IMG/VR virus record: IMGVR_UViG_3300009167_000011
Coordinates: 1 to 44,140 of that record
DNA: 44,140 nt
DNA from: a virus
Strand: one strand, 5' to 3'
Shown here: positions 3,267 to 40,218 of the stretch, piece after piece
Position numbering within the stretch: the stretch's first letter is position 1
Layout: every line of letters begins with the position of its first letter
Notes under the pieces: model-generated
Told to the model about the DNA's origin: nothing
Databases searched by the model: none
What the model saw: only the letters and a program-made list of their open reading frames with translations
Translations under genes and position numbers: made by a program

Positions 3267-3518
3267 ATGCATCCACTGTTCGAGGAGATTCTGCGGACGC
3301 AAGGCGTGGGCGCGGTGCAGGCCCACTGTTTCAACCGCTGGCAGCGGCAACTGCGCGATGAGATCCAGCCGATGCTGGACGAACTGGAGACGCTGCGGGC
3401 GGAAAAACTGACGTGGGAACGTTGGAAGGCGGAGCCGATTCGCCAACTGGATCTGGCCCCGCCCAAGCGCCCCCGCGGGCGCCCCCGCAAGCACCCGCTC
3501 CCGGTGGAGGCCGCATGA
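3267..3518 (+). CDS. Small protein with C-terminal AT-hook-like motif
   Basis: I chose the ATG at 3267, 83 residues, because GGGGAG (3257-3262) lies at good spacing; an in-frame start at 3207 lies before the hairpin and seems less likely. Residues 1-60 are helical, with a Trp/Arg/Gln-rich centre and a charged Leu-heptad region. The C-terminus has PRGRPRKHP, the minor-groove-binding AT-hook core (Arg-Gly-Arg-Pro). Such a motif in a protein encoded between capsid and glycosyltransferase genes may bind packaged DNA, or may simply be a basic tail. The stop overlaps the next start (ATGA). Confidence 0.6.
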   Translation: MHPLFEEILRTQGVGAVQAHCFNRWQRQLRDEIQPMLDELETLRAEKLTWERWKAEPIRQLDLAPPKRPRGRPRKHPLPVEAA

Positions 3519-6500
3519 TCTGGGGCTTCTGGATCGACTCGGTCCCCATCAGCCGGGGCGTGCTGGACGGCACGACCTCGCTGGGCGGGTCCGAGTCGGC
3601 CTGCATCGGCCTGATGCGGGCGTTGGCGCGGCGCGGGCATACCGTCCACGCCTTCACGCCGAAGCTCGAGCCGGACGCGGTGGGCGATGACGGGCAGGGC
3701 GTGGCCTGGCATCTCGGCACGGACTTCCACGGGCACCCGGTGTGGCTGCACACCGACTGGGATGTGTTCGTCGGACTGCGGATGCCCTACAGCGTCGGCG
3801 GGACGCAGATCCCGGCGCGCTGGCGCATCTTGTGGAACCAGGATCTACTGTTCCCGGCGCAGGCTGACGCGACGATGGGCGCGCTGTGGCAGACCGATAC
3901 GGTCGCCTACGTGTCGCAGTTCCATCGGACGGAGTGGGAGGCACTGGTGCCGGGCGTCAAGCCGCTCGGCTGGGTCACGAAGAACGGCTATGACCCGACC
4001 TGCGTGCCCACGGGCGTCGTGAAGCGCCCGAACCGCGTGATCCACATCAGCCGGCCGGAGCGGGCGCTGGTGCGGGTCGTGCGCGACGGGAAGGCGATGC
4101 GGGTGGACCCCGGCCCGCTGCTCCAGATGTGGCCGGCGGTGCGCGGGCAGCGCCCGGACGCTGAGTTGCACCTGTGCCGCTACTCGTCGATGTATGACGC
4201 GGGCGGGTGGGGCGAGATCTGCCGGGCGGCCGACGTGGAAGTGGCGAAGGTGGCCGAGGCGGTGGGCGGCATCGTCTACCTGGGCGAGTTGGGCAAGCCG
4301 GCACTCTACCGCGCCATCGCCGAATCGGCGGTGATGTGGTATCCGGGCGTGGTCGATTTCGCCGAGACGGGCTGCATCGCGGCTGTCGAAGCGCAGGCGT
4401 GCGGCACCCCGTTTGTCGGCTCGTTTAAGGGCGCGCTGCCGGAGACGGCGCCGCATAGCGTGCTCGTCAAGGGCGATGCCTCCAGCCTGGCGTATCAGGC
4501 GCAGAGCATCGGGGCCGTGCTGGCGGCGCTGGACGGCTGCCGCGACCAGACGGACGCCTACCGCGCCGAGGTTGAAGCGGGCCTGCGGCACGTCACGCCG
4601 GCCTACACCTACGATGCGCTCGCGGCCGAGTGGGAAGCCTACGTCCTAGGCCAGTTCGACCGGCGCAGCGCCGACAAGGCCGCTGTGCTCCGCAAGCTGC
4701 TGCTCTGGGATGACCACCTGTGCGCCCGGATCGTGGCGGCCGAGATGGGGCAGGCCGAGGTGGTCGCCTTCTGCGACCGCGTCATCGCTGGCGAGGAACA
4801 GAACGCGGAGGACTACGCCGACCGCGCCGTGTCCGACCCGCTCGTGGAGATCAAGGCGGGCATCACCCGGCTCGAGAGCATCGTGCCGTGGTATGCCGAG
4901 AGCACGCGCCTGCTGGACGTGGCGTGCGGGAATGGCGCGTGCGCGCTCAAGCTGCTGACGACGCACCCGCACCTGACGGTCGTGGGCGTGGACTATGCCC
5001 CGCTGAACATCGCCAGGGCCGAGGAAGCGGCCGAGAAGCTGGGCGTAGCCGACCGCGCCACGTTCGTCTGCCTGCCCATCTACGACTTCGGGACGCACAC
5101 GATGGCGCCGGCCTTTCTGGAGTGGCTGACGACGCAGGCGCCCTTCGATGCCGTCTTCGTGGGCGAGTTCCTCGAGCATGTGGCGAACGCGCCCGGCCTG
5201 ATTGACGGGCTGGAGGCCGCGTGCGCGCCTGAGGCGCTCGTCGGCTACACGACGCCGCGGGGGCCGTTCTCGACCCTGATGCCGCGCCTATCGGTCATCA
5301 AGCGCGGGCACGTCCATGCGTTCGAGCTTGACGACCTCGGGCGGCTGTTCGGGCTGAAGGACGGGCTGCGGATTGACGCCCTGAACGCCGGCACGAACAA
5401 GCGGGGCGAGCCGGTGGGACATTGGCTCGTGACCTACCGGGTGGCGCCCGATCGCCCGTCGCTGGACCGCGACTACGCGCATCGCATCCGGTCCACGCGC
5501 CCGCGCCCGTTCCTCTCGGCGCTCCTGATTACGCAGAACGAAGCCGCGAACCTCGCCGGCTGTCTCGACACCATCTGGGGACTGGCCGATGAGATCGTCA
5601 TCGGCGACACCGGCAGCGTGGACGAGACGGTGGAGATTGCCCGGCGGTATGACGCCCGGGTGCTGGAGTTGCCCTACATCTCGGCGCGTGACGGGTTCGA
5701 CTTCTCCGACGCCCGCAACGCCGTGCTCGACGCCTGCCGGGGCGAGTGGGTGCTCTGGATAGACGCCGACGAGACGCTGGAGGGCGGGAGCGACCTCGGG
5801 AAGTATCTGGAGAGCGGGCCGTTCATCGGCTACGCCATCGCCCAAGTCCATCTCGCGCTTGATGCTCCGGTCCATCAGGACTTGCCGGTGCGGTGCTTCC
5901 GGCGCGTGCCGGAGATTCGCTGGTTCGGCAGCATCCACGAGCAGCCGCAGTTCGGCGAGGCCAACGCCGACATCTTCCCGGCCCTGCAACTGCCGGACGT
6001 GAAGATCGCCCACCGCGGCTACCGGACGCTGCACCTGCGGAACAGCAAGCGCAAGCGGAACCTGCCCCTGCTGGACCTGGACCGCAAACGCTACCCGGAG
6101 CGCCGGCTCGGCCTGGTGCTCTGGCTGCGCGACCTCGTGCAAGAGGCCGAGGAACACATCGAGGCCCACGGCAAGCGCCTGACCGACCGGGCGGCGCGGT
6201 ATCTGACCGAGGCGATCGACGTGTTCGAGACGGAGTTGAACACGCCCGGCGACAAGTTGTATCCGTTCGCCCGCCCGTGGTACGAGCGCGCCGTGATGCT
6301 GACCAAAGAGCCGTGGGAGTTCGCCTATACCCTAGTCGGCCAGCGCGGCGGGCTGAACGGCACGAAGCCGCTGCTCAAGAAGGTGTGGGTGCGGCAGCCC
6401 GGCGACATCGAATCGGTCATCCGGCACGAACTCGCCGAACTCGAGCGGTCCCTCATCACCAAGCCCATCATTGTTGATCCGCCCAGCGCGGAGGCCACAG

Positions 6501-6538
6501 ACGATGAGTTGGCACCCGAACGATCTGGTCACGGATAG
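3515..6538 (+). CDS. Three-domain glycosyltransferase / methyltransferase / glycosyltransferase fusion
   Basis: The protein has 1007 residues, starting at an ATGA overlap with GGAGG at 3506-3510. Residues 1-380 look like a GT-B (GT4-type) glycosyltransferase: a Gly-rich loop TSLGGSESACIGLM (21-34), HISRPERAL (177-185), and the EX7E acid pair at Glu284 and Glu292 in FAETGCIAAVEAQACGTPF. Residues 440-645 are a class I SAM-dependent methyltransferase, with motif I LLDVACGNGACALKL (466-480) and acidic Asp493. Residues 665-850 are a GT-A (GT2) transferase: LITQNEAANLAGCLDTI, DTGSVDET, and the metal-binding DAD at 750-752. Residues 850-1007 are a helical tail. Its place in the capsid operon suggests that it decorates virion proteins or makes the sugar for this. 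The acceptor is unknown. Confidence 0.8.
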   Translation: MIWGFWIDSVPISRGVLDGTTSLGGSESACIGLMRALARRGHTVHAFTPKLEPDAVGDDGQGVAWHLGTDFHGHPVWLHTDWDVFVGLRMPYSVGGTQIPARWRILWNQDLLFPAQADATMGALWQTDTVAYVSQFHRTEWEALVPGVKPLGWVTKNGYDPTCVPTGVVKRPNRVIHISRPERALVRVVRDGKAMRVDPGPLLQMWPAVRGQRPDAELHLCRYSSMYDAGGWGEICRAADVEVAKVAEAVGGIVYLGELGKPALYRAIAESAVMWYPGVVDFAETGCIAAVEAQACGTPFVGSFKGALPETAPHSVLVKGDASSLAYQAQSIGAVLAALDGCRDQTDAYRAEVEAGLRHVTPAYTYDALAAEWEAYVLGQFDRRSADKAAVLRKLLLWDDHLCARIVAAEMGQAEVVAFCDRVIAGEEQNAEDYADRAVSDPLVEIKAGITRLESIVPWYAESTRLLDVACGNGACALKLLTTHPHLTVVGVDYAPLNIARAEEAAEKLGVADRATFVCLPIYDFGTHTMAPAFLEWLTTQAPFDAVFVGEFLEHVANAPGLIDGLEAACAPEALVGYTTPRGPFSTLMPRLSVIKRGHVHAFELDDLGRLFGLKDGLRIDALNAGTNKRGEPVGHWLVTYRVAPDRPSLDRDYAHRIRSTRPRPFLSALLITQNEAANLAGCLDTIWGLADEIVIGDTGSVDETVEIARRYDARVLELPYISARDGFDFSDARNAVLDACRGEWVLWIDADETLEGGSDLGKYLESGPFIGYAIAQVHLALDAPVHQDLPVRCFRRVPEIRWFGSIHEQPQFGEANADIFPALQLPDVKIAHRGYRTLHLRNSKRKRNLPLLDLDRKRYPERRLGLVLWLRDLVQEAEEHIEAHGKRLTDRAARYLTEAIDVFETELNTPGDKLYPFARPWYERAVMLTKEPWEFAYTLVGQRGGLNGTKPLLKKVWVRQPGDIESVIRHELAELERSLITKPIIVDPPSAEATDDELAPERSGHG

Positions 6539-25425: not shown

Positions 25426-27888
25426 ATGGCATACACCTTCCAGGTCGGCGCGCTCTCGTCGGTCGTCTCGTCGGGGGACGTGACCTGCAGCTATCCGACC
25501 GACCGGCAGACCGGCGACATCTTCGTTGCCTTCCTCGCCATTCGCAGCAACGTCGGGTTCACGCAGGCGACCTGGACGAAGGTCCACGAGAGCCTCACCG
25601 GCGACACGGATGCGACCGCCGGCGTGGCCTCCGGGCAGGTGTGGTGGTGGCGCTACGACGGCACGGGCACCAGCGTCACGTTCTCGCGCACCCTGGGCGA
25701 CCGGGCGCAGGGCTGCATCATCGGCGTGCGCGGGGCGGTCGCCACCGGCGATCCGATTGACGCGCAGGCCATCACGACCGTCACGGTTACGGCGGGCGGC
25801 TCGTGCGCGTTCAGCAACGTCACCGCGTCGGCCGGGGGCGATGCCCGCGCCCTGCTGACGTTTGCCAGTTACGGCGACAACAGCACGGGCGGCGACTTCA
25901 CGTCCACGACGCCCAGCGGCGGCACCTGGACCGAGGTCGCCTTCGCTAACGACAACACCGGGGCGGATGGCGGGGCCAGCGCCTACTACCACAGTGCCGG
26001 CCTCGCCGCGGGCGCGACCTCGAGCACGCTGGCGGCCACGGCCAGCGCGGCGGGCACGCACGTCGTCTCCACCATCGCCCTCAAGCCGGGCGTCACCCCG
26101 GTCACCCGTGATCCGCTGGTCGGCCTGGTGCGGGCGGTGGGCGCGGCGCCGGCGCTCGCCCTGGGCGTGCAACTTGGCCTGGGCGCGCTGCAGGTCATTG
26201 GCGGGGCGCCGACCTTGGACGTGGGCAAGTTGCTCACGCCGGGCGCGGGCACGGTCCAGATCGTCGGAGCTTCACCCACCGCGCAGCACGACTACTACCG
26301 GGCGCCGGACGCCGGCCTCGTGCGGGTCACGGGCGGGGCCGTGGACGCCCTGCACGCCCATCTGCGCGCCCCGGATGCTGGCGCTGTGCAGTTCGTGGGC
26401 GCGGCGCCCACGCTCGACATCGGCAGCGAGGCGTCCTTTACGGTCGAACTGCGTGAAGGCACGGACGTACGGGCGACCCGTGTCGTCAGCCACACGACGA
26501 GCTTCGCCGACTACGCCTACGACCTGACGGCGCCTGAAGTCGCGGCCATCGTGGATTGGTCCGCGCTGCGGGTGGCGTTCATCGCCGACGGCGCCCAGGT
26601 GGAGGTGTCGTGGGTGCGGCTGGACGTGCCGGCCGGCACCGGGGCGGTCACGAAGCTCCCGGGCGCCGGCGCGCTCGTCTTCGCGGGCGCCAGCCCGACC
26701 CTCGGGCGCTCCTATCTGGCGTTGCCGGATGCGGGGGCGGTTCAGATCGCGGGCGCCACTCCGACGGCGCTGCACGCCAGTATCCGGGCACCCGCATCCG
26801 GGGCGCTGCAGTTCATCGGCGGACAGCCCACGCTCACGGGCGAAGCGGGCCTCACGCCGGCCGCCGGCCTGCTGCAGTTCATCGGGGCCGCACCCACCGC
26901 GCTCCATGCCCGGTATGTCGGCCCGGGCGCCGGGGCGCTCGTCTTCGCCGGCGCTGAACCCAGCCTCACGGCTTCGCTCATCAAGGCGCCGGACGTCGGG
27001 GCGCTGGTGTTCACCGGGGCAGCCCCGACGGCGCAGCATGACCGCTTCGCCCGCCCGGGGTCCGGCGCGCTGGTCTTTGCCGGCGGGCAGCCGTTACTCG
27101 GCGGCGAAGCCGTCATCGCGCCCGATGCCGGGGCGTTGGTGTTCGTCGGCGGCCAGCCGACCGCGCTCCACGCCTACGCCCGGGCGCCTGACGCGGGCGC
27201 GGTGGTGTTTGCCGGGGCGGCCCCGACGCTCCAGCGCACCTACCTCGCGCTGCCCGGCGCGGGCCTAGTGCGGGTGCTTGGCGCCAGCCCGACCGTCCTC
27301 GGCGAAGGCGCGCTCGAGCCGGAAACCGGCAGCCTAACTTTCGTCGGTGCTGCCCCGACTGTGCGGGTCGCCCACTACGCGACCCCGGACGCCGGCCTGA
27401 CCCGGATCACCGGCGCCGCGCCGCTCCGCATCGTCAACCGGCTCCGCGAGCCGGGCGTGGGCCTGGTGCGGGTGGCCGGCGCCAGCCCGACCCTCGGGCG
27501 CACCTACGTGGCCCTGCCGGCCTCGGGCGCGCTGGTGTTCGCCGGCGGGCAGCCCACGCTGGTCGGGGAGGGCGCGATTGCCCCATCCGGTGGCCTGCTG
27601 CGGGTCACGGGTGCGGCGCCCACCGTCGGCTATGGCATCGGCGTCCCCAGCGGCGCCCTGCAGTTCGCCGGCACCATCTCGACCTTCGGGCGCACCTACG
27701 TCGCGTGGCCGGGCGCTGGGGTGGTGGTGCTGGCGGGCGGGCTGCCGGTGGCCGTGGTCGTCCCGCCCATCACCCACGTCGCCGAACCGGAAGATACCTG
27801 GTCGGTCCCGGGCACCCCGACCTGGCTGGTGCCGGGCGGCAAAACCTGGACGATTGACCCCACGCCCGTCTGGAGGGTAGAGACGTGA
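25426..27888 (+). CDS. Long fibre-like protein with 22 copies of a 22-residue repeat
   Basis: The protein has 820 residues. Residues 1-225 are a beta-sandwich head like that of the protein at 20014. Residues 230-333 hold five repeats. Residues 334-410 hold the second half of a domain (SFTVELREGTDVRATRVVS, DLTAPEVAAIVDWSALRVAF, VEVSWVRLDVP). Residues 412-780 hold 17 further repeats. The C-terminus (WSVPGTPTWLVPGGKTW) has Trp-Pro repeats. The long run of beta-hairpin-like units suggests a trimeric fibre shaft or beta-solenoid with a small tip. A receptor-binding function is inferred. The next gene overlaps by four bases. Confidence 0.65.
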   Translation: MAYTFQVGALSSVVSSGDVTCSYPTDRQTGDIFVAFLAIRSNVGFTQATWTKVHESLTGDTDATAGVASGQVWWWRYDGTGTSVTFSRTLGDRAQGCIIGVRGAVATGDPIDAQAITTVTVTAGGSCAFSNVTASAGGDARALLTFASYGDNSTGGDFTSTTPSGGTWTEVAFANDNTGADGGASAYYHSAGLAAGATSSTLAATASAAGTHVVSTIALKPGVTPVTRDPLVGLVRAVGAAPALALGVQLGLGALQVIGGAPTLDVGKLLTPGAGTVQIVGASPTAQHDYYRAPDAGLVRVTGGAVDALHAHLRAPDAGAVQFVGAAPTLDIGSEASFTVELREGTDVRATRVVSHTTSFADYAYDLTAPEVAAIVDWSALRVAFIADGAQVEVSWVRLDVPAGTGAVTKLPGAGALVFAGASPTLGRSYLALPDAGAVQIAGATPTALHASIRAPASGALQFIGGQPTLTGEAGLTPAAGLLQFIGAAPTALHARYVGPGAGALVFAGAEPSLTASLIKAPDVGALVFTGAAPTAQHDRFARPGSGALVFAGGQPLLGGEAVIAPDAGALVFVGGQPTALHAYARAPDAGAVVFAGAAPTLQRTYLALPGAGLVRVLGASPTVLGEGALEPETGSLTFVGAAPTVRVAHYATPDAGLTRITGAAPLRIVNRLREPGVGLVRVAGASPTLGRTYVALPASGALVFAGGQPTLVGEGAIAPSGGLLRVTGAAPTVGYGIGVPSGALQFAGTISTFGRTYVAWPGAGVVVLAGGLPVAVVVPPITHVAEPEDTWSVPGTPTWLVPGGKTWTIDPTPVWRVET
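26116..27765 (+). repeat. Twenty-two tandem 66-bp units coding 22-residue repeats, split by one domain
   Basis: Units 1-5 lie at 26116-26424 and units 6-22 at 26662-27765; the half-domain lies between them. From unit 6 to unit 19 the period is exactly 22 residues. Units fall into subtypes by their variable half: R-T-Y-x-A-L-P (units 6, 14, 18, 21), LHA or QHD (3, 4, 7, 9, 11, 13), and G-E (8, 12, 15, 19). Codons differ between units of one subtype, so the array is old and kept at the protein level. Confidence 0.85.
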
Positions 27889-32057: not shown

Positions 32058-32314
32058 TGCGACACGACCAGACGTTGACGCGGGCCGCCGCGGAGTTGCT
32101 GATGCAGCAACCCGGGCGCTGGGTGAACTGGCGTGAGATCGCCCAGGTCGCGGGCGGGTGCGCGTGGCGCACGCGTCTGTCCGATGCGCGCAAGCAGTTC
32201 AACATCACGATCGAGAACCGCGTGCGCTACGTGCGGGACAACGGCCGGCAATACAAAATCAGCGAATACCGCTACGTGCCGCCCGTGGGGCAGCAGCGGT
32301 TCTGGGTGGCGTGA
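32057..32314 (+). CDS. Winged-helix DNA-binding protein
   Basis: The protein has 85 residues. The module WVNWREIAQVAGGCAWRTRL, then a second helix (SDARKQF) and a wing (VRYVRDNGRQYKISEYRY), form a small winged helix as found in many phage proteins. It lies just before the cytosine methyltransferase and could regulate this block or help target the nuclease or methylase. Confidence 0.6.
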   Translation: MRHDQTLTRAAAELLMQQPGRWVNWREIAQVAGGCAWRTRLSDARKQFNITIENRVRYVRDNGRQYKISEYRYVPPVGQQRFWVA

Positions 32315-33349
32315 ATGTGGCTGCACGTCCCATCCGCGTGCTCTCCATCGCCGCCGGCATCGGCGGACTCGACCTCGCCCTCAGAGGCGCACTGCCAGGC
32401 GCTCGCGTCGTCTGCTATGTGGAGATCGACGTGGCGGCAGCCGCGGTTCTGGCGGCGCATATGGCAGGCGGCGCCCTTGACCCGGCCCCTGTCTGGTCTG
32501 ACGCACGCACCTTCGACGCTAGACGCTGGCGTGGAGTCGTGGATTGCGTCGCTGCGGGCTACCCCTGCCAGCCCTTTTCCGTCGCCGGCGCCCGACGTGG
32601 GGCCGACGATCCCCGGCATCTCTGGCCCGTCATCCTCGGACACGTTCGAGCAATTGAGCCTCGATGGGTGGTGCTGGAGAACGTCGCCGGCCATCTGCAG
32701 TTGGGGTTCGAGCAGGTCGGGCACGACCTACGAAGTCTGGGCTACACGGTTGCGGCAGGTCTATTTACAGCGGCGGAAGTCGGCGCGCCGCACCGACGGG
32801 AACGGCTGTTCATCGTGGCAGACCGCGGACTGGAAAGGCGAGAGCGCCCAGTCGTGGCGCACGCGGACGGACGGCGACACGACGCCCCGGCTGGCCGACC
32901 AGGTCTCCCTGTTTGGCCGCCCGGTCCCGCCGACCACGCCGGCTGGGCCGCCGTCCTCGCCCGCTGGCCCGACCTCGCGCCGGCTGTGGCCCACCCCGGA
33001 CGCCAACGTGATGAATGACGGCGAGGACGCGGCCACGTTCGAGTTGCGGCGGGCACAGAACCTCGCCAAGCACATCAACGGCAACGGCATGGGCGAGCCG
33101 CTGGCCTACACGGCAGCGATGTGGTCAGGAGTTGAGCATGCCGGGGCGGTCGTCCGTCGTCGCTTGAATCCTCGTTTTTGCGCCTGGCTGATGGGGTTTG
33201 ACCCGGACTGGTGCGCGGGCCTCTCGCGCGTGGATGCGCTGCGCTGTTACGGCAACGCCGTCGTGCCCGCGCAAGGCGCCTACGCGATCGTGGTGCTGCT
33301 GGGCGAGTTGGCACGGCACGCGGCAACGGCAACCGACGAGGTGGCGTGA
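32315..33349 (+). CDS. Second reading frame over and beyond the cytosine methyltransferase; carries its C-terminal motifs
   Basis: This frame opens at an ATG two bases before the methyltransferase GTG and spans 344 residues. Its last 115 residues are coding without competition: NPRFCAWLMGFDPDW and LRCYGNAVVPAQGAYAIVVL look like the final motifs of a cytosine methyltransferase. From about residue 160 it also reads like a known phage protein type (SSWQTADWKGES, LWPTPDANVMNDGE, NGNGMGEPLAYTAAMW), with almost all codons ending in G or C. It may be a separate protein, or reach the ribosome by a shift from the methyltransferase frame. Its first 60-70 residues are probably not meaningful. Confidence 0.55.
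   Translation: MWLHVPSACSPSPPASADSTSPSEAHCQALASSAMWRSTWRQPRFWRRIWQAAPLTRPLSGLTHAPSTLDAGVESWIASLRATPASPFPSPAPDVGPTIPGISGPSSSDTFEQLSLDGWCWRTSPAICSWGSSRSGTTYEVWATRLRQVYLQRRKSARRTDGNGCSSWQTADWKGESAQSWRTRTDGDTTPRLADQVSLFGRPVPPTTPAGPPSSPAGPTSRRLWPTPDANVMNDGEDAATFELRRAQNLAKHINGNGMGEPLAYTAAMWSGVEHAGAVVRRRLNPRFCAWLMGFDPDWCAGLSRVDALRCYGNAVVPAQGAYAIVVLLGELARHAATATDEVA
32317..33018 (+). CDS. DNA (cytosine-5) methyltransferase, catalytic part
   Basis: The GTG at 32317 gives 233 residues. The SAM-binding motif I is VLSIAAGIGGLDLAL (8-22). The catalytic Cys84 lies in GYPCQPFSVAG, and Glu121 lies in LENVAGHL. LRSLGYTVAAGLFTAAEVGA with PHRRERLFIVAD follows. The last part (LPVWPPGPADHAGWAAVLARW and PDLAPA) is typical, but the final GN-V motif is missing; an equivalent lies in the other frame (33249-33300). 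Codons with A or T at the third position become frequent after about 32750, as if the other frame constrained it. It likely protects phage DNA from host nucleases. Confidence 0.75.
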   Translation: MAARPIRVLSIAAGIGGLDLALRGALPGARVVCYVEIDVAAAAVLAAHMAGGALDPAPVWSDARTFDARRWRGVVDCVAAGYPCQPFSVAGARRGADDPRHLWPVILGHVRAIEPRWVVLENVAGHLQLGFEQVGHDLRSLGYTVAAGLFTAAEVGAPHRRERLFIVADRGLERRERPVVAHADGRRHDAPAGRPGLPVWPPGPADHAGWAAVLARWPDLAPAVAHPGRQRDE

Positions 33350-34349: not shown

Positions 34350-35099
34350 ATGGCGAGTTGCGGTGCGGCCCAGTTCGGACCCGAGACGCCATCGAAGCAT
34401 CGAGATCTTGGCGGGATTTTCAAGCTCTACGTGCCCATCCTGCGGTCGATGGTTCGCAACCGCCGTTTACAGACGTTCGTCTACGTTGACCTCCACGCCG
34501 GTCCCGGTTTGTACGATTACGGCGCGATCGGCTCTCCGCTTCTGGCAGTTCATGCCTTCCACGACGAGCCGTATTGCGCCGCGCTGCATTGTTTCGAGCA
34601 GGACGCGGACACCTATGACCGCTTGACGGAGAACTCCTGTTCTTACGCGAAGCTCATCGCGCATCAGGAATCGAACGAAAACGCGCCTAAGCTCAAGATT
34701 CCAAGCCATAGTCACGGCCTCGTGTTTTCTGATCCGAATCCGAACCGAGAGAACATCCCAGTCGAGATTCTCAAGACGTTCGCTAACCAATGGCCGAGGA
34801 TTGACCTGCTCTGTTACGTCTCAGCAGCGACTATCAAGCGCATCAGGACCGCACATAACGGAGAAGGGCTACTCGAGTCACTGGCTGGCATCAACAAGAG
34901 CGAGATGATTGTCCGCAAGCCTGAAGGCAAGCATCAGTGGACGTTCATCCTGCTCACAAACTGGGTAGGGTTTCCCGAATGGCGCAAGGCAGGATGGGTG
35001 AGGGCCAGGAGCGAGGCTGGACTGCGGATTCTCGAGGAACTCGACCAGACCAGGCGGGAACGGCGCGAGACGCACAACCCGCGTCTGTTCGACCTGTAG
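34350..35099 (+). CDS. tcmP: Three-Cys-motif partner protein TcmP
   Basis: The protein has 249 residues. Family-like signatures include SKHRDLGGIFKLYVPIL, FVYVDLHAGPGLY, IGSPLLAVHAF, HGLVFSDPNPN, and LLTNWVGFPEWRKAGW. The first resembles a Rossmann-type Asp-x-His-Ala-Gly-Pro-Gly loop, so nucleotide or SAM binding is likely. TcmP proteins are known to occur beside the three-Cys-motif (phage Gp37/Gp68) protein, which indeed follows at 35317. GC content is lower than in nearby genes and codon use is more relaxed, suggesting a transferred cassette. The pair's biochemical role is not established. Confidence 0.75.
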   Translation: MASCGAAQFGPETPSKHRDLGGIFKLYVPILRSMVRNRRLQTFVYVDLHAGPGLYDYGAIGSPLLAVHAFHDEPYCAALHCFEQDADTYDRLTENSCSYAKLIAHQESNENAPKLKIPSHSHGLVFSDPNPNRENIPVEILKTFANQWPRIDLLCYVSAATIKRIRTAHNGEGLLESLAGINKSEMIVRKPEGKHQWTFILLTNWVGFPEWRKAGWVRARSEAGLRILEELDQTRRERRETHNPRLFDL

Positions 35100-35320
35100 C
35101 GTATCAATCCTATGCGGAATATCTCAGACACCCGAAGTTCCGCGCCATCCGAGCGGCCGTGATGAAGCGCGCCCAGGGCAAGTGCCAACGTTGCCTGATG
35201 AACCCGGCGACTGAGGTGCATCACCTGCGCTATCCGAAATGGGGCACGTTCGACGTGCCGGCGAACCTGATGGCCGTCTGCCACGGCTGCCACTGCGACA
35301 TCGAAGGGAAGGCTTCATGA
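34994..35320 (+). CDS. HNH-type endonuclease between tcmP and the three-Cys gene
   Basis: The C-terminal 75 residues are a clear HNH unit: YAEYLRHPKFRAIRAAVMKR, GKCQRCLMNPATEVHHLRYP, NLMAVCHGCHCDIEG, with paired CxxC and His-His. The start is unclear: there is no ATG or GTG after the tcmP stop upstream of the domain, so translation must begin inside tcmP (ATG 34994, 34979 or 34937) or by a shift from it. The conserved part begins exactly at the tcmP stop. It overlaps the next gene by ATGA. Confidence 0.6.
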   Translation: MGEGQERGWTADSRGTRPDQAGTARDAQPASVRPVAYQSYAEYLRHPKFRAIRAAVMKRAQGKCQRCLMNPATEVHHLRYPKWGTFDVPANLMAVCHGCHCDIEGKAS

Positions 35321-36636
35321 GCGAGTTGCTTGAGATCGAAGGACCGATAGACGGCTTGACCGAGTTGGTGGAGCGCGAGGACCGCATCGAACGGGCGCAG
35401 CGTAACGCCTACTACGAGATCGGCCTGGACCTGAAAGCGATTCGAGACAAGCGGCTGTACCGGGTGCCGCGGCCATCACGGATCAACGGGCGCTACTCGT
35501 TTGAGACGTTCGAAGATTATTCTGAAAGCCGTTGGGAATGGGCGCCACAACATTCCGGGCGCCTTATCCGAGCCGCAGAACTAGCCCTGAAAATGGAACC
35601 AATTGGTTCCATTTTGCCGGCCCGCGAGTCGCACATCCGCCCGCTCTTAGAGCGGTTACAAACCGACGATGAACGACTCGTCGTGTGGCAGCAAGTTCTG
35701 GCCGGTGGCGTAGACCGCGTGACTGCCAAGTTAGTCGAGGAGCACGTCACGCGCTACGTTGCTGCCCGCGATAAGGAGTTCTGCACGCTAGATGAATGGG
35801 GAACGTGGCAGGACGACGAACGTGCGGCGGCGCTCACCTTCAATGGTAATCACAAGTTCAACGCCCAGGAAGGGAACGAGGAACGGAGCACACAGAACAT
35901 CGAGTGGGCGCAGTGGTCATGGAATCCCGTCACCGGATGCCGGCACAACTGTCCCTACTGCTACGCCCGCGACATCGCCACCCGGTTCTACCCGATGCAA
36001 TTCGAGCCGGCCTTCTGGTACAAACGCCTGACTGCGCCGAAGAACACGCCCTCCCCCAAGCAGGCCGAGCACGACATCAGCTTCCGCAACGTCTTCACCT
36101 GCTCGATGGCTGACCTGTTCGGCCGCTGGGTGCCACAGGAATGGATCGAGGCGGTACTGGCGCAGGCTGAAGCGAATCCGCAGTGGAACTTCCTGTTTCT
36201 CACGAAGTTCGCCTCTCGATTAGTCGGCTTCAAGTTTCCTAAGAACGCCTGGATTGGCACGACCGTCGATTGCCAAGCGCGGGTGAAGGCAGCCGAAGAT
36301 GCGTTCGCCAAAGTAGACGCGCCGGTTAAGTGGCTATCGATTGAACCGATGATCGAGCCGTTGCACTTCAAGAACCTTGAGATATTCAACTGGCTCGTGA
36401 TTGGTGGAGCAAGCAAGAGCACGCAGACCCCGGAATGGCGCGTGCCGGTGTGGTGGTGGGCGCCGTTGTATCAGCAGGCGATCGAATCAGGCTTGTCTGT
36501 CTACCTGAAGTCGAACCTCTACGAGCGCGGGCGTGGGTATCCGGGTGCGCCGTGGAAACAGCTAACGAAAGCGCCTGATGCTTTCGCCTATCTCAAAGCC
36601 AAATCGAAGGACGACATCGTGCTTGGAGAACGATGA
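35317..36636 (+). CDS. Phage Gp37/Gp68-family (DUF5131) three-Cys protein fused to a ParB-like N-terminal domain
   Basis: The protein has 439 residues. Residues 1-165 are helical, with RNAYYEIGLDLKAIRDKRLY, then SESRWEWAPQHSGRLIRAAE, and ILPARESHIRPLLERL, a pattern of ParB/KorB-like DNA-binding domains. Residues 195-439 are the DUF5131 part: WSWNPVTGCRHNCPYCYAR, with Cys208, Cys212 and Cys215 in CxxxCxxC spacing as in radical SAM enzymes, FRNVFTCSMADLFG, and WLSIEPMIEPL. An iron-sulfur, SAM-dependent reaction is likely. With a DNA-binding front end, the substrate may be a nucleic acid. The function is unproven. GC is low for this genome. Confidence 0.75.
   Translation: MSELLEIEGPIDGLTELVEREDRIERAQRNAYYEIGLDLKAIRDKRLYRVPRPSRINGRYSFETFEDYSESRWEWAPQHSGRLIRAAELALKMEPIGSILPARESHIRPLLERLQTDDERLVVWQQVLAGGVDRVTAKLVEEHVTRYVAARDKEFCTLDEWGTWQDDERAAALTFNGNHKFNAQEGNEERSTQNIEWAQWSWNPVTGCRHNCPYCYARDIATRFYPMQFEPAFWYKRLTAPKNTPSPKQAEHDISFRNVFTCSMADLFGRWVPQEWIEAVLAQAEANPQWNFLFLTKFASRLVGFKFPKNAWIGTTVDCQARVKAAEDAFAKVDAPVKWLSIEPMIEPLHFKNLEIFNWLVIGGASKSTQTPEWRVPVWWWAPLYQQAIESGLSVYLKSNLYERGRGYPGAPWKQLTKAPDAFAYLKAKSKDDIVLGER
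35590..35615. repeat. 26-bp perfect palindrome inside the three-Cys gene
   Basis: Every base from 35590 to 35615 pairs with its mirror image around the central AATT (35601-35604). It is AT-rich at both ends, and codes residues about 92-100 (KMEPIGSIL) of the ParB-like domain, in the middle of GC-rich DNA. It could be a dimeric protein-binding site for the ParB-like domain or another regulator. Confidence 0.6.
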
Positions 36637-37938: not shown

Positions 37939-39360
37939 ATGCGCGTGCTGGCTGATGCGCGGTCGCTCCCGCTGGCGTCCGGCAGCGTGCAGTGTGTCGT
38001 CACGTCGCCGCCGTACTGGGGGTTGCGCGATTACGGCACGGCTACGTGGGAGGGCGGCGACCCGGCGTGCGACCACAAGAAGGTGTCGGCAGATGTGGCA
38101 CGCCGCGCTATCGCAACGTCAACGCTCGGGGGGGGGCAGGCGACGAACTCGCACCAGCAGGAGGGGTGGATCGGCGGGGTGTGTGGTCGCTGCGGTGCCC
38201 ACCGCAGCGACGCGCAGATTGGCTTAGAGTCCACACCGGACGCCTACGTTGACACCCTCGTCGCCGTCTTCCGCGAGGTGCGGCGCGTGCTGCGTGAGGA
38301 CGGGACGTGCTGGCTCAATCTGGGGTCAAGTTACTTCGGAAATCCCCTCGCCTACGCTGATGGTAACGGTCCCAGCCTGTCTCGCCGTGGTCCGCGTGTT
38401 CCTGCATATGGCACTGATGGCACAGGACTTCAAGATTCGACGGGCGCTGATTTCGCTTATTCCGGTCTTTGTGATGGATGCCTAGCCGACTTTCTGAGCC
38501 ATCGTGACCGCATCGTTGGCAGCGGCCGACAGCCGCTACAAGGCGAGCCGCTTTGGTGGCAGACAGGCCGTGATAGCGGGCTGACGGATTCCGCCGCAGC
38601 ATCTCCTGGCGTTTGGCCTCGCGGCGCTCAGGCGTCCACCACGCTTGAATCTTGGCGGCGACATCGGGGTGCGTGCTCGCGCTGCGATAGTCGTGCTTCC
38701 GCCCTTTCTGGGCTTCGCTCATCTTCTGGCGATGCTCCGGCGTTCTCTGGTATGTCATGGCTGAATTATACCAGAAGGTTGAAAGCCAAGGACATGGTAC
38801 CGACGCCGTGGATGGTCGCAATGGCCCTGCAGGCCGACGGCTGGTATCTGCGGCAAGACATCATCTGGGCGAAGCCGAACCCGATGCCGGAGAGCGTGAC
38901 CGACCGCTGCACAAAGGCGCACGAGTATCTGTTCCTGCTGACGAAGCGGGAGCGGTATTACTGGGACGCTAACGCGGTAAAGGAGGCTGGAGTAGAACAG
39001 CCGCGAGCGAAAGAGGGCGGTGCTGGCGAGTCTGCTGTTCAACGCAAGTCTCGCGGCTTCGATAACTGTATGGGCACAACCGGAACCCGCAATCGCCGCT
39101 CCGTCTGGACCGTCGCTACGCAACCTTATGCCGGGGCGCACTTCGCCGTCATGCCGGAGGCGCTCGTGGAGCCGTGCATCCTCGCCGGCTCACGCCACGG
39201 CGATCTCGTGCTCGATCCGTTCTGCGGCTCAGGGACGGTCATGCGCGTGGCCTATCGCTACGGGCGGCGCGGCGTCGGCTGCGACATCAATGGCGCTTAT
39301 CTCGATCTGGCGGGCGAGCGCACGCAGGTCACGCTCGGCCTGCCGCTGGAACTAGCGTGA
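37939..39360 (+). CDS. DNA adenine-N6/cytosine-N4 methyltransferase with an in-frame insertion
   Basis: The protein has 473 residues. The catalytic motif TSPPYWGL is at 22-29, and the SAM motif DPFCGSGTV at 426-434, the order of beta-class enzymes. [13 protein letters not shown] (122-134) normally leads into the [11 protein letters not shown] segment, here at 281-291. Instead about 146 residues of low-complexity sequence (135-280) lie between; these are the reverse complement of an HNH gene (38315-38758). The rest ([35 protein letters not shown]) is normal. The enzyme may be inactive, tolerate the loop, or be restored by splicing. Confidence 0.8.
38315..38758 (-). CDS. HNH homing endonuclease, antisense inside the DNA methyltransferase gene
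   Basis: This is the only gene on the - strand, 147 residues. The N-terminus ([20 protein letters not shown]) is a NUMOD3-like DNA-binding repeat. The C-terminal half has the HNH core [20 protein letters not shown], then [15 protein letters not shown] -10-like TATAAT lies six bases before its ATG on the - strand, so it can be expressed by itself, possibly leaderless. GC content is lower than in the host gene. Its stop lies in the codons for the host enzyme's conserved LNLGSS motif. Confidence 0.85.
   Translation of the reverse strand: MTYQRTPEHRQKMSEAQKGRKHDYRSASTHPDVAAKIQAWWTPERREAKRQEMLRRNPSARYHGLSATKAARLVAAVGRCQRCGHDGSESRLGIHHKDRNKRNQRPSNLEVLCHQCHMQEHADHGETGWDRYHQRRRGDFRSNLTPD
38765..38770 (-). 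promoter_or_regulatory. Minus-strand -10 box for the antisense HNH gene
   Basis: Read on the - strand this is a perfect TATAAT, ending six bases before the HNH ATG (38758). No good -35 box is visible at 16-18 bases. The position predicts a leaderless transcript. Confidence 0.45.
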
Positions 39361-39385: not shown

Positions 39386-39523
39386 ATGCCGTTGAAGCGC
39401 GGGTCGTCGGCGAAGGTGGTGTCGGCGAATATCCGGCGCCTGGTTCACGAGGGCAAGCCGCAGAAGCAAGCGATCGCGATCGCCATGTCGAAGGCCGGAC
39501 GCAGCCGGAAGACGCGCCGATGA
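39386..39523 (+). CDS. Small basic protein, DUF6496-like
   Basis: The protein has 45 residues, with GAGGGGAGGG upstream. The sequence [18 protein letters not shown], then [19 protein letters not shown], is a widespread small phage and bacterial module, recognised by the Lys-Arg-Gly-Ser-Ser start and the [10 protein letters not shown] box. The function is unknown. The stop overlaps the radical SAM gene start. Confidence 0.65.
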
Positions 39524-40218
39524 TGCAGCCCGCGCCCGTCCGTGCGCTCAAGGTGATCGAGGTGACGAGCCGGTGCAGCCTCTCGTGCGTGTATTGCCTC
39601 TGGCCCACCATGCCGCGCCCGAAGCTCGACATGACCCCGGAGACGTGGCAGCGCGTCCTCGTCTGGCTCGCCTACTGCCGCGACCACGGCCGCCAGGGCG
39701 AGGTGTCCTTCTCCGGCGTGGGTGAACCCACCCTACACCCGCAGTTCCCGGCCATGCTACGGGACGCCCGCGAACTGCTTGGCGGCCAGGCCCGCATCCT
39801 GTTCACGACGAACGGCAAGAACTGCACCGAGGCGCTGGTGCGCGCCGTCCTGCCCGCCCGCCCACAGGTCTGCGTGACCAACCATTTCGCGCACCTCGCC
39901 GGCCCGGCTGCCGCGCTCTACCGGCGCTTCGGCCTGCTGCGCGCCATCAGCCATGACCCGGTGGACGCTGCGCAGGATTGGGCCGGGCAGGTGCAGTGGC
40001 CCACCCGCTACGCCGACCCCGCGAGCCGCGGGGAGTGTCTGGTGCTGCGCGAGCGCGCCGCCCAGGTCAACGCCGACGGCACCTTCGCGGTCTGCTGCAT
40101 GGACGGCAGCCACGAGACGGCCGCCGGCACCGTGTTCGATGACCCGGAGACCACCGCGTTCCGCATGACGCCGTGGCGCCTGTGCGCGTCCTGCTGGCAA
40201 CGCCCGCCCGACGTATGA
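39520..40218 (+). CDS. Radical SAM enzyme
   Basis: The protein has 232 residues. The cluster motif is RCSLSCVYC, with Cys19, Cys23 and Cys26 in CxxxCxxC spacing, followed by [15 protein letters not shown] (the Gly-Glu SAM-binding strand). The C-terminal region has [11 protein letters not shown] and WRLCASCW, Cys pairs like those of the SPASM/twitch domain that holds an extra cluster. Radical SAM-SPASM enzymes often modify peptides. The neighbours are tiny Cys-containing and basic proteins (39386, 40215), which could be substrates or partners, but that is speculation. Confidence 0.75.

Follow-up and report, generated by a model that had tools for sequence, protein, structure and literature searches.

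Overlapping reading frames predicted to encode the two domains of a C5-cytosine DNA methyltransferase in a phage and its relatives

Introduction

How is a gene to be read when the motifs of one cytosine methyltransferase lie in two overlapping frames of the same strand? This question is raised by a locus in the window, which is the whole stretch of DNA analyzed here, an IMG/VR virus record of 44,140 bases. A sequence-only reading of the window had divided the motifs between the two frames and had offered two explanations, a long dual-coded overlap or a methyltransferase completed by frameshifting.

C5-methyltransferases made of two polypeptides are already known, namely M.AquI and M.EcoHK31I, and the locus in the window would represent a family-wide phage variant of them. 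In M.EcoHK31I the gene for the small subunit is located inside the gene for the large subunit, in another frame. The large domain of C5-methyltransferases contains motifs I-VIII and X and the small domain contains the recognition region and motif IX (PMC3404938). The same source states that M.EcoHK31I (YGGCCR) needs both of its polypeptides, the larger one having motifs I-VIII and X and being said to hold the predicted recognition domain, and the smaller one having motif IX. For M.AquI (CYCGRG) it assigns motifs I-VIII to the alpha polypeptide and the distal variable region with motifs IX-X to the beta polypeptide (PMC3404938).

Results and discussion

Two open frames in the window

Both frames are open between the starts and stops listed in Table 1, and the start pair immediately follows the TGA of the upstream ORF (32312-32314). 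The division of motifs described in the sequence-only reading was recovered. Frame 1 contains motifs I-VIII of C5-cytosine DNA methyltransferases, including the PCQ catalytic motif (PF00145, 1.1e-30; profile positions 2-162), and ends without motif X. The recognition region, identified by a profile match, and motifs IX-X are found in frame 2, the last motifs being placed there because PF00145 positions 273-313 match this frame at 33149-33271 (1.9e-6). Third-base GC is likewise higher in frame 2 (0.80, 0.91 and 0.83 over 32317-32811, 32812-33018 and 33019-33346) and relaxed in frame 1 (0.71, 0.70 and 0.52 over the same intervals). However, frame 2 had been thought recognizable only from about 32790, and it is already family-like from residue 80 (32552). 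PHROG 1008 matches it over most of its length; this match to phrog_1008 (“DNA methyltransferase”, 4.6e-23) spans positions 42-326 of the 329 in the profile. The first residues, MWLHVPS, also fit the start motif of the relatives.

Judged by the window itself, the absence of frame-2 stops over motifs I-VIII (0 versus 1.75 expected, P = 0.08) is no more than suggestive. The strength of the two-frame case comes from the relatives.

Table 1. Features of the two-frame methyltransferase locus in the window.
Feature	Positions	Strand	Basis
Overlapping start codons ATGTG: frame-2 ATG 32315 and frame-1 GTG 32317	32315..32319	+	Sequence
Frame 1: catalytic polypeptide (predicted), 233 aa, motifs I-VIII	32317..33018	+	PF00145 1.1e-30, phrog_363 1.2e-51
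Cytosine methyltransferase motifs I-VIII, large-domain core, frame 1	32335..32826	+	PF00145 positions 2-162, 3e-32
Frame-1 linker, open in relatives, PPGPxD...W..VL...PDLAPA-like stretch	32827..33018	+	Sequence; low-confidence modelling in relative L014
TGA ending frame 1	33016..33018	+	Frame 2 uses AAT for Asn; L009 has AAC and frame 1 open
Frame 2: recognition polypeptide (predicted), 344 aa, PHROG 1008 relative	32315..33349	+	phrog_1008 4.6e-23, residues 80-337
Frame-2 N-terminal motif MWLHVPS; family pattern W-[LI]-[YHF]-x-P	32315..32335	+	Start motif of relatives
Frame-2 target-recognition region, WQT/WPTP-type units	32810..33154	+	Frame-2 profile versus LPTP recognition region of single-frame actinophage methyltransferases
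Motif IX region LNPRFCAWLMGFDPDW, frame 2	33164..33211	+	Profile match; near-invariant N285, P286, F288, M293, G294, P296
Motif X region SRVDALRCYGNAVVPAQGAYAIVVLL, frame 2 here, frame 1 in most relatives	33224..33301	+	PF00145 273-313; same placement in L160

Several other genes of the window were also recorded. These include a second DNA methyltransferase of the N6/N4 type (37939-39360; PF01555, 1.1e-43), a large protein with glycosyltransferase and methyltransferase domains (3500-6538; PF00535, PF13489), a Radical SAM protein (39520-40218; PF04055, 5.1e-8) and an 820-aa protein without a Pfam match that has many PDAGALVFAGAxPT-like repeats (25426-27888). At 34350-36636 a 249-aa ORF without a Pfam match is followed by a DUF5131 protein (PF07505, 2.8e-38), a pair that presumably resembles the three-Cys-motif partner arrangement.

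Avoidance of stop codons in the relatives

Relatives were collected by a scan with the frame-1 protein, and the best 80 of 583 confirmed viral loci were kept. With three loci found by frame 2, four phage records and the window, 88 loci were examined, from which 33 non-redundant representatives were defined as loci less than 75% identical. Among the best 80 of 583, which were selected by frame 1, 63 have no +1-frame stop across the frame-1 gene; overall this is the case in 67 of 88.

Shuffles of the whole gene are weak in GC-rich loci, so a regional, pooled and controlled stop test was made. The single-locus P values were not used, as they fell below 0.05 nearly as frequently for the +2 frame (28 of 88 loci) as for the +1 frame (36 of 88). 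The expected number of stops was calculated from synonymous shuffles that preserve the frame-1 protein and its codon usage. Over motifs I-VIII, frame 2 of the 33 representatives contains 5 stops versus 59.8 expected, and no stop occurs in 29 of them. In contrast, 13 single-frame relatives (mostly actinophage), which served as the control, contain 59 +1-frame stops versus 58.9 expected over the same motifs. The five frame-2 stops are located in L008 (two), L015, L016 and L066; those in the last three loci and one of the two in L008 were shown to lie, or possibly lie, just before the frame-2 start. The openness of the middle region was not used as evidence, because 7 of the 33 loci were dropped from that test, the chosen stretch holding a frame-2 stop, and because the openness of frame 1 there is partly by construction, the loci being bounded by the frame-1 stop. 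As judged from the sequences of the relatives, both frames are real and the two-frame layout of the window is not a lone sequencing error.

Start codons and the N-terminal motif of frame 2

Both starts are in phase within the sequence xTGTGG in 31 of the 88 loci, and in most of the remaining loci the frame-1 start is four bases ahead of the frame-2 ATG. Just after the frame-2 start, the anchor W of the family pattern is present in 32 of the 33 representatives and the exact pattern in 26. Within this motif the third bases of frame 2 are the most variable; for example, the entropies at the proline codon are 0.34, 0 and 1.95. The automated motif scan missed L059, in which the upstream sequence encodes TWLYLPP, and deviants from the motif are L010, L022, L023, L034, L037 and L043. 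A separate observation concerns L025 (2439-2450), in which a frame-2 TAG occurs at codon 4, inside an otherwise conserved start motif.

Which frame is selected along the gene

The codon-position substitution analysis proposed in the sequence-only reading was run on the related loci, and the selected frame was found to change along the gene. For 29 disjoint pairs, per-site differences at positions 1, 2 and 3 of frame 1 were 0.078, 0.047 and 0.200 in codons 1-165, 0.235, 0.082 and 0.094 in the middle (codon 165 to 40 before the end) and 0.083, 0.044 and 0.151 in the last 40 codons. Loci L003, L004, L005 and L059 were left out of these counts. Position 1 of frame 1 is position 3 of frame 2, and therefore the middle evolves as a frame-2 gene. 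A substitution profile in 5% bins (26 disjoint pairs) showed the same switch of frame. In single-frame enzymes position 3 is the fastest throughout, with position-3/position-1 ratios of 2.69, 2.43 and 2.81 by region (10 pairs), and an excess at position 3 is seen in the genes that flank the two-frame loci. Compared with the single-frame control, the middle is different (chi-square P about 2e-60, with sites pooled and their dependence ignored) and the first half is not (P = 0.76). By pair, position 1 exceeds position 3 in the middle in 22 of 26, and position 3 exceeds position 1 in the first half in all 26. The four contrary pairs, which lack the switch, are L025/L032, L082/L090, L015/L016 and L047/L070; three of these are among the shortest or most diverged.

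Selection thus acts on frame 1 along motifs I-VIII, passes to frame 2 for the recognition region and motif IX, and returns to frame 1 at motif X. Because the selected frame changes in this manner, the boundary between the frames divides the large structural domain of the enzyme from the small one. In most relatives the partition corresponds to the large and small domain division of C5-methyltransferases (PMC3404938). The earlier proposal of a dual-coded overlap is upheld in that relatives keep both frames open over almost the whole gene, unlike the single-frame relatives. The claim that both frames look real in 32790-33018 needs to be qualified, since constraint is unequal: motifs I-VIII are selected chiefly in frame 1, and the recognition region and motif IX chiefly in frame 2. 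Over 32812-33018 the conserved message is therefore probably that of frame 2, and frame 1 is probably a tolerated linker.

Over motifs I-VIII, the substitution comparison detected no amino-acid constraint on frame 2 beyond that of the single-frame control. This part of frame 2 is thus kept open, with no detectable constraint on the residues it encodes. A leave-one-out profile test over the same motifs, which omitted 5 of the 33 representatives (L059, L066, L008, L069 and L003), placed 28 of 28 loci above 100 of 100 synonymous shuffles. It was withdrawn because it does not distinguish coding from shared codon use, with a nearly equal mean z in the single-frame control (6.05 against 6.3).

Identity of the two parts

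When compared with single-frame enzymes, the frame-2 profile matches only the LPTP recognition region and motif IX, for example in Jarcob gp70 (2.2e-12) and FVLQ01 (9.7e-11), with E-values for a seven-protein set. In the same comparison frame 1 matches motifs I-VIII and X. The two parts are present as separate neighbouring annotated genes in Gordonia phage Upyo (54 and 53) and as separate annotated genes in Mycobacterium phage Jarcob (69 and 70). Single-frame LPTP-type phage methyltransferases (phrog_116; Mycobacterium phage Fancypants gp73) have the same order of motifs I-VIII, LPTP units, IX and X, but they differ in having one frame and one chain, and their +1 stops are not depleted. Homologues with only one open frame, which the sequence-only reading would have counted against a two-frame gene, do exist, and they were found only in this more distant single-frame class.

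In the AlphaFold model of the L014 frame-1 protein, the catalytic core and the motif X helix are confident. Confidence is below 50 at residues 186-227 and 251-270, and the model has no confidently folded recognition domain. The structures nearest to it are M.HaeIII (4.8e-12), DNMT1 and M.HhaI. The frame-2 model is poor (mean pLDDT of 56), the motif IX-X region being among its better parts. Frame 2 is identified as the putative recognition part by sequence homology, and its model was too uncertain for a fold search. A PDB sequence search with the frame-2 profile returned no methyltransferase; its best match, the MS2 coat protein over about 30 positions, was taken as chance.

The window's own variant and its likeness to known enzymes

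Most relatives carry motif X in frame 1, the window in frame 2. Because motif X lies there with the recognition region and motif IX, the window's distribution (I-VIII in one frame and recognition region, IX and X in the other) is M.AquI-like, and the other loci are nearer to M.EcoHK31I. The division of M.AquI into motifs I-VIII (alpha) and IX-X (beta) is the one found in frames 1 and 2 of the window (PMC3404938); the likeness concerns motif distribution, and frame 2 of the window overlaps the whole frame-1 gene. The M.EcoHK31I type, in which the large chain has motifs I-VIII and X and the small one IX, was not found in the window, where X is in frame 2. Most relatives, with X in frame 1, fit M.EcoHK31I on that point. 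M.EcoHK31I differs in that here the recognition region is with motif IX in frame 2, together with motif X in the window. In addition, the starts nearly coincide here and the arrangement is that of a phage-borne family.

The exact 24-base stretch across the window's frame-1 stop was found in no other viral contig, and this stop may be the result of recent damage. L160 (1822-3076) matched the window's C-terminal query best. It begins with the same ATGTGG as the window, keeps both frames open along motifs I-VIII and carries motifs IX and X in a single frame. Downstream of motif VIII, the two frames of L160 are shifted together with respect to the window, possibly through an indel or a contig error. 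The window's unit PDANVMNDGE...NGNGMG was also seen in the frame-2 proteins of L161 (1988-3457) and L009, where frame 1 is open through it.

Distribution and annotation

Relatives of the two-frame arrangement are found in phages of several bacterial groups. In coliphage and Salmonella phage loci (L005 and L131-L136), nested frame-2 runs of 195-296 codons were present in 7 of 7 examined, each with P <= 0.001 (1000 shuffles); L131 and L132 belong to the BASEL phages Bas72 and Bas70. In three loci from Paenibacillus (GC 0.48-0.53) the nested runs are 272, 372 and 351 codons long, and 0 of 500 shuffles reach each of these. Matches to phrog_1008 occur in 14 of 289 genomes in the class of the Alphaproteobacteria MAG behind L127. 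A plasmid search gave 4 records, and a bacterial genome scan with one frame-2 protein gave only 4 loci.

Annotation of these loci is uneven. In Escherichia phage K1ind1, whose frame 2 starts inside frame 1 and whose motif X is in frame 1, both nested frames (ORF28/ORF29) are annotated as DNA methyltransferase. Only the frame-2 ORF is annotated as a methyltransferase in Acidovorax phage Alfacinha3 (L006, 1937-3103) and Escherichia phage NTEC3 (L135, 1090-1752), and the frame-1 ORF bearing the catalytic motifs is unannotated in both; in Bas72 only frame 1 is annotated. No statement of a two-frame enzyme was found for PHROG 1008 or K1ind1. Nor was a description of this arrangement found in the open-licence literature on overlapping or overprinted phage methyltransferases, Mte8, K1ind1, EcoHK31I or YGGCCR, an absence that carries little weight.

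Two further observations were made among these loci. In L131-L136, which come from coliphages and a Salmonella phage that are closely related, the WPTP units of the frame-2 protein vary in number and sequence, as if modules had been exchanged. Other methyltransferase loci (L167, 2099-2593; L168, 703-1257) have a nested +1 ORF with a motif-IX-like end, NPxxxxW(L/M)MGFP, and frame overlap may reach further methyltransferase families.

Proposed mechanism and alternative explanations

Given the two open frames, the change of selected frame, the homology of each part and the paired starts, we consider it quite probable that two polypeptides with overlapping starts at one ribosome site assemble into one C5-cytosine methyltransferase. 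Frame 1 would supply the large catalytic domain, with motifs I-VIII and in most relatives also X, and frame 2 the small recognition domain, which comprises the target-recognition region and motif IX and, in the window, motif X as well. At a single site, ribosomes would begin at one or the other of the overlapping start codons, so that the catalytic and recognition polypeptides would be made together and then assemble. Both frames would accordingly have to be translated and the assembled enzyme would methylate DNA, and its purpose may be protection of phage DNA from host restriction.

Alternatively, programmed ribosomal frameshifting could yield a single chain: after translating motifs I-VIII in frame 1, ribosomes would shift by +1 into frame 2 to continue through the recognition region and motif IX and, in relatives, would return to frame 1 for motif X. 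The joined segments would give the motif order of single-frame enzymes, and the window would need only one shift. We nevertheless regard this as unlikely. It leaves unexplained why frame 2 avoids stops and conserves a start over motifs I-VIII and why frame 1 stays open to its own motif X, and most relatives would need two opposite shifts. A conserved shift site at the frame change was not found, the scanned patterns, from a short list, being absent from codons 150-215 in 30 of 33 loci. Frameshifting thus becomes the lesser of the two options raised in the sequence-only reading, as frame 2 has its own start and N-terminal motif and is stop-free upstream.

For the window itself, a sequencing error or a recent frameshift might have broken a single-frame methyltransferase, since motifs I-VIII and the recognition region with IX and X are each intact and one frame apart, and single-frame enzymes of the same layout exist. 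This is very improbable when frame 2 is open up to the shared start with the family's N-terminal motif, the two-frame layout is repeated in dozens of loci and L160 shares both the start pair and the placement of motif X. We give just as little credence to the explanation that frame 1 encodes the whole enzyme by itself and frame 2 an unrelated overprinted protein, such as a regulator or an anti-restriction factor. Most relatives' frame-1 proteins do have motifs I-VIII and X, and several are annotated as complete enzymes. However, the frame-1 stretch between motifs VIII and X evolves as the relaxed frame and is modelled at low confidence in L014, and in that stretch it is frame 2 that shows homology to single-frame enzymes, namely to their recognition region and motif IX.

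The two-polypeptide enzyme may extend to a phage-wide class of obligate heterodimers, with two starts at one ribosome site and two frames from start to end. In this class WPTP units would be exchangeable in frame 2, with frame 1 carried along as an open linker, and specificity would change. The chances of this broader proposal seem about even.

Significance

If the two-polypeptide reading is true, many phage genes annotated as “DNA cytosine methyltransferase” would be half an enzyme, with the recognition half unannotated or filed as hypothetical in the other frame, or the reverse, as in Alfacinha3 and NTEC3. Cloning one frame would then yield an inactive protein, and predictions of specificity would be wrong. 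The loci would also provide a large natural data set on the upkeep of a long, full-length overlap in which selection on any given stretch falls mainly on one frame, and on how recognition modules are swapped inside it. If the heterodimer class is real, these would rank with the longest conserved overlaps between same-strand genes that are known from DNA phages and bacteria.
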